In this document: in pieces, positions 33,040 to 34,830 of the stretch
How positions within the stretch are numbered: the first letter of the stretch is position 1
How the letters are laid out: every line of letters starts with the position of its first letter
Source of the DNA: Natronococcus sp. A-GB7
Lineage (GTDB): Archaea; Halobacteriota; Halobacteria; Halobacteriales; Natrialbaceae
Direction: 5' to 3'
Length of the DNA stretch: 64,000 nt
Assembly (NCBI RefSeq): GCF_029688865.1
Contig: NZ_JARUKV010000002.1
Span: forward strand, 186,001-250,000
Made by a program: the position numbers and the translations under genes
Notes under the pieces: model-generated
Told to the model about the DNA's origin: nothing
The model's database searches: none
What the model saw: only the letters and a program-made list of their open reading frames with translations

Positions 33040-33277
33040 CCCACCCCACTGTGTCCAGTGTCTCGTCTCAAGCGTCGAGCCGCCAGAAGCGGCGTTCGCT
33101 TCGATACCCCATCGCGTCCAGTGTCCTATCGCGGTCAGATTGGCAACGATCCGTCTCGAATTCGTTTGGGAGGAGGTGCTCCCCCACCCCATTGTGTCCA
33201 GTGTCTCAGCGTGAGCGCGCGCCACGGTCGAGGCGTTGCTGGATCGCTTCGGTCACCCCCACTACGTCCACTGTCTC
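33040..33277 (-). repeat. four ORB-like repeats downstream of, and inside, orc
   Basis: On the plus strand these read as variants of CCCACTGTGTCCAGTGTCTC at 33040-33065, 33107-33126 (CCCCATCGCGTCCAGTGTC), 33183-33208 and 33257-33277, all in one orientation. The third covers the orc stop codon; the fourth lies within the orc coding sequence. A hairpin with arms GGAGGGGG/CCCCCTCC at 33008-33032 precedes them. Identical sequence occurs upstream of orc (26 bases identical between 33040-33065 and 34528-34553). Confidence 0.8.
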
Positions 33278-34432
33278 GTCGAGCGCCTCGAGCAACAGAT
33301 CCGGATTCGTATCGATCGCGTACTCGTAGTACCGTCCGCCGACCTCGCCCTCGTTCCGTTCCGTTCGACTCGCGATACCCAACATCGCGAGCTCGTTCAA
33401 GTGGTCCCGCATCCGACGCGGGACGAGCGAGTCCGCCGCAGCCCGATCGCAGACGATCTCGTACCGATCCTGGATGTCACGCGCTCGAGTCGGCGCCTGG
33501 CCCTCTTCGTGAAGCATCACAAGCGCGTACAGGACGAGTTGGCCTTGCTGGGTGAGCCCCGCAACACCGTCGGCGATACGGCTCCGCTCGAGCGCCGCTC
33601 GGGCGTCGTCGACGTGTCCCTCCGTGATTCGTTCTGCTTCCCGCTCGACCGCGATGTCGCCGGCTTCCATCAAGAGATCGAGACTCTGCCGGGCATCACC
33701 GGCGTCTTTCGCGCCGAACGCCGCACACTTCGCGATCACCTCGGTCGGCACGACATCGTCGTAGAACGCAACGTCGGCACGTTGCTGGAGGATATCCCGG
33801 AGTTCGTGGGCGTCGTAGGCAGGAAACTGCAGCTCCTTCTCACAGAGGCTCGACTGCACTTTCGAGCTCAGGCTCTCGCGGAACTTGAAATCGTTCGAGA
33901 TCCCAATGATTCCGACCTTGGACCGCTCGAGGTTCCCGTTCGCCCGGGCTCGAGGGATCTGGTACAGGATCGAATCGTCCTCGATGTGGTCGACCTCATC
34001 GAGAACGATGACGATAGTACCGCCGATCGAGTCGAGTTCCTCCCAGAGCCACTCGTTGACCTGCCGTCGAGGGTAACCGGTCGGTTTGAGCTGCTCATTA
34101 GGTTCCCGAAGCTCGTTTATCAGCTGAATCGCGACCTGGTAGCTCGTGCTCAGGTCCTCGCAGTTGGTCCGAACCGTCGTCAGATCGACACCGTACTCGG
34201 TCGCGTCGGACTTGAGTTCGGAAAGGAGATACCGGGTGCACGCGGTTTTCCCAACACCGGCCTTTCCGTACAGGAAGATGTTCGCAGGCTGGTCGCCGTT
34301 AATAACGGGCTGAAGTGCAGAAATATACTGCTGGAGTTCCTGATCGCGGCCAATAATCTCCTCCGGCTGGTAGTCCTCTCGAAGCGCGTCGCGGTGGCGA
34401 AAGATATCCATGTCCGGCTGAAACAATCCCAT
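33206..34432 (-). CDS. orc: Orc1/Cdc6 replication initiator
   Basis: The 408-residue AAA+ protein has Walker A GKAGVGKT (56-63), Walker B VIVLDEVDHI (about D145-E146), a sensor-1 ISNDF motif, and a C-terminal winged helix (about 310-408) that binds ORB repeats. It loads the MCM helicase at its own origin. ATG 34432 was chosen because TTTATATC, 33-40 bases upstream, is a good TATA box and further upstream is ORB DNA. ORB repeats abut this box, so self-repression by its own product is plausible. Start of the N-terminus is MGLFQPDMDIFRHRDALRED. Confidence 0.95.
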   Translation of the reverse strand: MGLFQPDMDIFRHRDALREDYQPEEIIGRDQELQQYISALQPVINGDQPANIFLYGKAGVGKTACTRYLLSELKSDATEYGVDLTTVRTNCEDLSTSYQVAIQLINELREPNEQLKPTGYPRRQVNEWLWEELDSIGGTIVIVLDEVDHIEDDSILYQIPRARANGNLERSKVGIIGISNDFKFRESLSSKVQSSLCEKELQFPAYDAHELRDILQQRADVAFYDDVVPTEVIAKCAAFGAKDAGDARQSLDLLMEAGDIAVEREAERITEGHVDDARAALERSRIADGVAGLTQQGQLVLYALVMLHEEGQAPTRARDIQDRYEIVCDRAAADSLVPRRMRDHLNELAMLGIASRTERNEGEVGGRYYEYAIDTNPDLLLEALDETVDVVGVTEAIQQRLDRGARSR

Positions 34433-34830
34433 ACTGATCGGTACTGGATGCACTCTCGACGACAGATATAAAGCCACCGTGTCGAGTGTGTCCAGTGTGT
34501 CTTCTGTCTGCTATACACCTCATCCTACCCACCCCACTGTGTCCAGTGTCTCGGGAACCGAGTGTGGGATGAGGATGTCGACGCTTGTAAACCAAAACTT
34601 GTAATTAGTATCTTTCCGGAGTTCCGAACGATAGCAAGAGAAGAGGGAGCGACAGGTCCGTTCGAGGAGAGATCGGGGTAGACAGACTGTCATAGAGATA
34701 GTCGACGGTGCAATCGCAGTACGTGTCGCGGTTGTATCCGTACACTGTTCCAGGAACCGCATACGAAGATGACCACACACAAGACGACCGAAGACACTGG
34801 ACACACTGGGGGGAGGGGGGTCGAACCGTT
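34433..34830. other. orc-linked replication origin (oriC)
   Basis: The interval upstream of orc holds ORB repeats at 34472-34501 (two overlapping imperfect copies) and 34528-34553 in one orientation. A further repeat at 34790-34811 is inverted (AGACACTGGACACACTGGGG) and ends in a G-string (GGGGGGAGGGGGG). Between them is the AT-rich stretch 34584-34616 (TAAACCAAAACTTGTAATTA), a candidate duplex-unwinding element. Inverted ORBs flanking an unwinding element next to an orc gene is the standard haloarchaeal origin layout. Confidence 0.85.
34465..34472 (-). promoter_or_regulatory. TATA box of orc
   Basis: TTTATATC on the minus strand, centred 36 bases before ATG 34432. The ORB-like repeat at 34472-34492 occupies the BRE side of the box, so Orc binding would compete with TFB/TBP. 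Confidence 0.6.

Follow-up and report, generated by a model that had tools for sequence, protein, structure and literature searches.

The stretch of DNA analysed here (64,000 nucleotides from Natronococcus sp. A-GB7, called the window) carries seven ORB-type sites, including a cluster of half-sites, around a single intact orc gene (Table 1). The Orc protein contains GKAGVGKT starting at residue 56 and IVLDEVD starting at residue 142, which we take to be the Walker A and B motifs, and phmmer identified 2v1u and 2qby as solved archaeal relatives. Comparison with the N. jeotgali gene gave a dN/dS of 0.066, indicating that orc is under purifying selection. The gene is flanked by a convergent histidine kinase gene on one side and by purC on the other, with cofH nearby. 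Since purC lies on contigs of 3.97-4.15 Mb in three relatives, the locus can be assigned to the main chromosome. In N. jeotgali (locus L089, G088:C166:50000-63000), the kinase gene and orc have been rearranged as a block with respect to purC: the kinase-orc adjacency is retained, and purC lies about 5 kb away with other genes in between.

Table 1. Features of the orc locus, in window coordinates
Feature	Position	Strand	Remarks
orc1/cdc6 initiator gene	33206..34432	minus	408 aa, intact; TIGR02928, E 1.1e-130, profile positions 1-365 of 366
Outer upstream ORB, opposite in orientation to all others	34791..34815	plus	4 mismatches in 25, 1 in 19-nt core
Candidate unwinding region between inverted ORBs	34554..34790		49% AT overall; putative role
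Inner upstream ORB	34528..34552	minus	0 mismatches to the 25-mer
Tandem 9-bp half-ORBs, candidate autoregulatory site	~34468..34505	minus	abut the TATA-like TTTATA of orc
ORB within the coding end of orc	33253..33277	minus	6 mismatches in 25, 3 in 19-nt core; codons for ETVDVVGV
Stop-codon ORB	33183..33207	minus	1 mismatch in 25; core begins directly after TGA
Weaker downstream ORB	33103..33127	minus	8 mismatches in 25, 3 in 19-nt core; 2 mismatches to the second genome-scan pattern
Outermost downstream ORB	33040..33064	minus	0 mismatches; corresponds to the left of the two ORBs that bound the L087 deletion

The 25-mer GAGACACTGGACACAGTGGGGTGGG, read in gene sense, occurs exactly at the inner upstream and outermost downstream sites, and the identity of these two sites extends over 26 bases (33040-33065 and 34528-34553), as stated in the original prediction. 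Its claim of four ORB copies downstream of or inside orc was also borne out by coordinates and letters. Two of these copies required correction. The one said to cover the stop codon does overlap the TGA (33206-33208), but by two bases only, the 19-nt core lying after the stop; the one near the C-terminus is present, but its codons are those for ETVDVVGV and not DETVDVVG. The half-ORB cluster at the orc promoter was absent from the earlier list.

The two inverted upstream ORBs each contain a G-run and enclose an AT-richer stretch, of which the AT-richest 60 bases (34585-34644) reach 63% AT; most of the window is about one-third AT. As in haloarchaeal orc-adjacent origins, an intact orc thus stands alongside inverted ORBs with G-strings around an AT-rich stretch. 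As in oriC2D of H. hispanica, discussed below, an ORB cluster directly follows the cognate orc; three of its copies overlap or follow the stop, and a fourth lies in the coding end. This layout supports the proposal of an origin next to orc, with ORBs that flank the gene and also occur inside it. When 8 mismatches were allowed, the 25-mer also matched three unrelated places in the window (47596, 40558 and 14080), so the 25-mer match at 33103 is weak by itself; what supports an ORB there is the 19-nt core, with 3 mismatches, and the location of the copy.

We scanned the 4.88-Mb assembly with a 21-mer (up to 3 mismatches) and with a different 21-letter pattern (up to 2 mismatches). Each scan returned five places, all at this orc, and together they covered six different sites. 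The reversed-pattern control gave no match in this genome and a single one across the nine genomes of the second scan. These scans and the orthologues rule out a chance repeat. Because both scans matched this locus only, the ORB type and its Orc look like a private pair. The genome contains 18 places that match this Orc, some of them partial, which points to many orc-like genes; the ORB scans matched only this one.

ORBs on both sides of orc across the family

We compared 16 non-redundant loci (group A, window included) with an Orc identity of 72-100%, counting near-orthologue duplicates once (L044 with L019, L047 with L020, L053 with L021, L055 with L022, and the plasmid record L075 with L046) and accepting up to 4 mismatches in the 19-nt core. 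Downstream ORBs were present at all 16 loci, with 1 to 6 per locus; 61 were in gene sense and one was in the opposite sense. One of the 61, 564 nt past the stop in L049, probably belongs to a neighbouring orc of group B. The reversed motif gave one match over all 16 loci. The core of the stop-proximal ORB lay 5-11 nt past the stop in 13 loci, and upstream ORBs occurred in both orientations in 15, the inverted one being absent only from L021, a short contig. A second set (group B; Orc identity about 61%, ORB core ACAGCGGACANNGTGGGG) comprised 28 loci with near-duplicates retained, 12 further family matches without loci and most plasmid records being left out. Downstream ORBs of this group's own sequence were found in 26 of the 28 (3 mismatches allowed over 15 specified bases, counted without a reversed control), a count in which the start of L062 is misassigned. 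On these sequences, ORBs on both sides of orc are the rule in the family, and a layout unique to this genome is ruled out by the orthologue loci.

Half-sites of the group's own ORB type abutted the promoter in most rows of both groups, as judged by eye. Exceptions were L054, in which TTTTAT is missing, and those group B rows whose half-sites are poor (e.g. L058 and L065); for L062 the misassigned start brought the wrong stretch into the comparison. The sequences of the ORBs and of the promoter half-sites appeared by eye to change together between the groups, as expected if each Orc reads both. This arrangement points to autoregulation of orc.

Judged by eye, the spacing of the downstream ORBs differed between loci and showed no fixed period that would point to helical phasing. 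In Haloterrigena salina (L022), five inverted ORBs lie 731-889 bases upstream of orc, four of them at exact 29-base steps, and only one ORB lies downstream. This pattern fits what would be expected if ORB dosage counts more than position. Another locus (L095, G104:C6:76000-87000) has convergent group A and group B orc genes about 660 bases apart, with downstream ORBs, apparently of both types, in between; two plasmid-type origins lie there side by side.

ORBs downstream of orc are already known and are not new. (Statements on published work are drawn from the accessible parts of the cited papers.) The original prediction held that ORBs usually lie only upstream. This is the general rule in PMC3528665 (Wu et al. 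2012), but the same paper lists both-sided ORBs for several orc genes, cdc6E included, and in the present family downstream ORBs are the rule. In H. hispanica, oriC2D comprises 11 ORBs in 722 bp downstream of cdc6E and restrains oriC2, probably by titration; it could be deleted with oriC2-cdc6E but not alone, it lowers the plasmid level, and two downstream ORBs had an intermediate effect (PMC3936714). The window locus shares with oriC2-cdc6E/oriC2D an origin upstream of orc and an ORB cluster directly downstream, whereas the H. hispanica cluster is larger and its Orc is probably of a different family. In the accessible text of PMC3936714 we found no mention of an ORB in coding sequence for oriC2-cdc6E.

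In a locus of H. amylolytica (L111, G125:C51), orc is followed within 850 bases by 12 repeats like AGAACACTTGCACGGTGG that share one orientation; judging by this array only, this orc is probably the cdc6E homologue. Fifteen other orc loci scanned there (L124 left out) have 1 to 4 downstream repeats, and L119 and L120 carry smaller same-orientation sets of 3 and 4. The L111 Orc, identified by its array and not as a named cdc6E, is 39% identical to the window Orc; the family rule in PMC3528665 is at least 80%.

The closest experimentally studied Orc that we found is that of pHH400 from H. hispanica (NC_015944.1), with 61% identity. Its gene, cdc6K, is the sole cdc6 gene of pHH400, whose origin could not be deleted (PMC3528665, PMC3936714). 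Like the window locus, oriP-cdc6K has half-ORBs at the promoter and ORBs on both sides, those downstream lying at distances of 3, 60 and 127 nt from the stop. It differs in its ORB core (ACAGCGGACA in pHH400, GACACTGGACA in the window), in a larger upstream array and in the codons equivalent to those of the coding ORB, which contain no ORB (13 mismatches in 25). Given the different core and an identity below the 80% of the family rule (PMC3528665), we rejected membership of the oriP-cdc6K family. Six megaplasmid origins are much closer, with 78-88% Orc identity, the same ORB type and the both-sided layout: those of Haloterrigena sp. KLK7, Halobiforma lacisalsi pHLAJ5I, Natrinema sp. DC36, Natronorubrum daqingense, Natrinema halophilum and Haladaptatus pallidirubidus. 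They differ in lying on plasmids of 115-425 kb, and have 3 to 6 downstream ORBs by the same criterion. No experimental study of these six was found in the literature searched. Close relatives of the gene are not all on small replicons, one being on a 3.79-Mb contig (G065). With kin on six plasmids and the closest studied relative on the megaplasmid pHH400, we read the locus as a megaplasmid-type origin within a chromosome. That chromosomal origins derive from integrated extrachromosomal elements has already been proposed (PMC4010727; PMC4441112).

An ORB in the last codons of orc

The coding ORB starts in the codon for residue 386. Since the phmmer alignments to 2v1u and 2qby stop at residues 384-389, it encodes a tail at or just beyond the end of the known fold. 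Many group B rows retain E-T-V-x-x-V-G despite their different ORB type, so the peptide is older than the coding ORB. Ten of the 16 group A loci have this ORB with at most 4 core mismatches; L019 and L073 have 5, and L021, L022, L056 and L057 have more. With the site beyond this limit or absent in 6 of 16 loci, it would not be essential to the family.

We considered the possibility that the coding ORB is a coincidence between a conserved peptide (ETVDMVG) and the motif. Partial conservation of the peptide in group B, where the ORB differs, means that protein constraint supplies part of the match, and in a reduced set of nine loci the 7-codon ORB stretch ranked only 10th of 400 in synonymous identity (0.612; mean 0.44). 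Yet over 14 loci the same stretch ranked first of 402 (0.727; mean 0.512). Several of its codons are not the favoured ones: ACA accounts for 21% of Thr, GTG for 20% of Val and GGG for 17% of Gly codons over these orc genes, duplicates included. In five lineages, chosen for bearing the ORB, synonymous identity was 1.0 in the stretch versus 0.456. When synonymous codons were permuted within each gene, 0, 0, 0, 1 and 1 of 2000 shuffles matched as well as observed at this place (0 for the window gene), and a match anywhere on the coding strand was obtained in 0 of 300 shuffles in each lineage; the lineages are related, so these are not five independent tests. The orc of the window differs from those of the other four lineages by 0.69-0.84 synonymous differences per site, so a short time of divergence does not explain the identity of the stretch. 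Coincidence is therefore highly improbable in our view, and we conclude that in most of the lineages, though not in every one, selection appears to act on the DNA of this stretch as an ORB.

This conservation at synonymous sites appears to be new. As far as the accessible texts go, the motifs of PMC3528665 came from intergenic regions, and so did those of PMC4595724, which looked upstream of cdc6; because both searched intergenic regions only, coding ORBs fall outside these surveys and may be commoner than such surveys would reveal. We found no earlier report of an ORB within the orc coding sequence in the literature searched, which excluded most subscription journals.

Deletion scars in Natronococcus relatives

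We compared nine genomes of the genus, drafts among them (G091 has a completeness of 96 and a contamination of 7). The orc gene is present in two, the window strain and N. jeotgali, and four contain relics (G087, G089, G091 and G092), so that orc has been lost in four of the six genomes with traces of this origin. The 21-letter pattern scan gave no ORB match in G090, G093 and G094. G092 aligns to the window up to 33065 and then again from 34528. Its junction is a single ORB, one base different from that of the window, and the outer ORB and the unwinding region are kept. The orc deletion in G092 runs exactly between the two 26-bp ORBs. G091 has a 114-bp orc fragment between two outer ORBs. G087 also has two outer ORBs, with 2 and 3 core mismatches, and some 117 bases without a match lie between them. 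In G089, about the last two-fifths of orc survive next to the same kinase gene, interrupted by an internal stop codon; the coding ORB is still present, with 4 mismatches, as are four downstream ORBs. None of the relic genomes contains another close Orc, the best being 36% identical in G087, G091 and G092 and 52% in G089.

In a tree of a single gene, purC, the six genomes with the gene or a relic form one clade in which the losses are interleaved, the order of N. jeotgali and G089 being left unsettled. This pattern suggests one gain and about three losses of the orc of this origin. We also considered that the empty site of G092 might represent the state before insertion. This is disfavoured by the retained unwinding region and outer ORB, by the orc fragment at the same place in G091, which lies outside the group of window, G092 and G087 in the purC tree, and by two further species in which the same kinase gene is accompanied by orc or by its end.

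PMC4441112 describes origins that have been added, deleted or disrupted, in some cases with transposases. The precise ORB-to-ORB loss of orc appears to be new, and no earlier report of such a deletion was found in the literature searched, most subscription journals lying outside it. The scars show a route by which chromosomes may lose captured plasmid origins, namely deletion of the initiator, once precisely between ORBs.

A model for the origin and its alternatives

The account that we favour, and hold to be probable though far from secure, is that the chromosome contains a replicator of megaplasmid type that has a brake of titrating ORBs, an initiator under autoregulation and repeats that permit its own excision. 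It builds on what was observed directly, namely how the sites are laid out, how far this layout and the synonymous positions are conserved, and the scars left by deletion; from these we infer binding, titration, autoregulation and origin activity. Orc would bind the inverted ORB pair at 34528 and 34791, around the AT-richer stretch, and open the origin, while the half-ORBs at the promoter would let it limit its own synthesis. The direct-oriented ORBs, from the last orc codons to past the stop, would not fire; they would hold Orc and lower initiation, acting by analogy as oriC2D does on oriC2 of H. hispanica. Selection at synonymous positions would preserve the coding ORB. Incidentally, the ORBs repeated in direct orientation around orc would serve as recombination substrates through which the initiator gene can be removed. 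In E. coli, datA is a separate locus. The proposed logic, in which spare sites and promoter sites limit initiation, is like that of datA titration and dnaA autoregulation (cited in PMC3936714), with a different initiator.

The same sense of 61 of the 62 downstream ORBs, the kinship with megaplasmids seen in the six plasmid records, the precedent of oriC2D (PMC3936714) and the purifying selection on orc all argue for this account, and H. salina, with one downstream and five inverted far-upstream ORBs, fits dosage over position. Against it, the tests of the brake come only from what is probably another Orc family (about 39% identity if L111 is cdc6E), and the coding ORB is poor or absent in 6 of 16 loci, with the modest rank in the nine-locus set. 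GC skew along the 270-kb contig has its minimum at 225 kb and no clear inflection at the site (219-221 kb). Finally, the gene losses in Natronococcus mean that the window copy may be weak or dormant. Of the options in the original prediction (a looped complex, bidirectional control or self-limiting expression), the last would fit best, since a downstream ORB cluster restrains the H. hispanica origin genetically (PMC3936714) and half-ORBs abut the orc promoter here. The identity over 26 bp also has an effect that can be demonstrated, since in one related species orc has been lost through a deletion exactly between the two ORBs that share it.

Dormancy in this genome, as a decaying plasmid origin whose ORBs are inherited without present function, would be compatible with the favoured account for the family as a whole. 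Relics in four of the nine genus genomes, the lack of any ORB match in three others and the 18 orc-like matches, some partial, speak for it. It is a serious rival for this chromosome in view of these losses, but we consider it doubtful, as the intact orc with its low dN/dS argues for use, and the inverted ORB pair is intact, two ORBs are identical over 26 bases and the coding ORB is preserved. The coding, stop and downstream ORBs might instead act on transcription, bound Orc blocking or ending transcription of orc or insulating the convergent histidine kinase gene, so that mRNA would be tuned with no titration. Their place at the coding end, the stop and the gap to the convergent gene would suit this, as would the narrow position of the stop-proximal site in 13 of 16 loci, and the promoter half-ORBs already suggest an action of Orc on transcription. 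This explanation is unlikely in view of the variable number (1 to 6) and spacing of the downstream sites, of the orthologue with most of its array upstream, and of the effect in trans of the chromosomal downstream array of H. hispanica on a plasmid (PMC3936714).

Another possibility is that Orc molecules bound to the downstream ORBs and to the origin ORBs pair with each other, either in cis or from one copy to another, and thereby silence or help the origin. Such initiator-mediated pairing of origins is the handcuffing model of iteron plasmids. It would agree with the near-identity of the sites that flank a 1.2-kb gene and with the nearly uniform orientation of the downstream ones over 16 loci, and the incompatibility of oriC2 plasmids has been compared to that of plasmid origins (PMC3936714). 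We regard it as distinctly improbable, the spacing of the downstream sites varying between loci by eye.

Within the favoured account of an autoregulated and titrated replicator, a bolder proposal can be made. The last codons of orc would be a selected initiator-binding site, serving at once as protein code and as brake, and the flanking repeats would form an off-switch through which recombination removes the initiator and leaves a bare origin. The second part takes its cue from the one related species with an initiator-less bare origin, and we put the whole forward tentatively, leaning somewhat against it. As to the sites themselves, downstream ORBs are the rule across one origin family, where they reach into the initiator's coding sequence and accompany half-sites at its promoter. 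The locus may therefore offer a compact test system for the control of initiator dosage in archaea.
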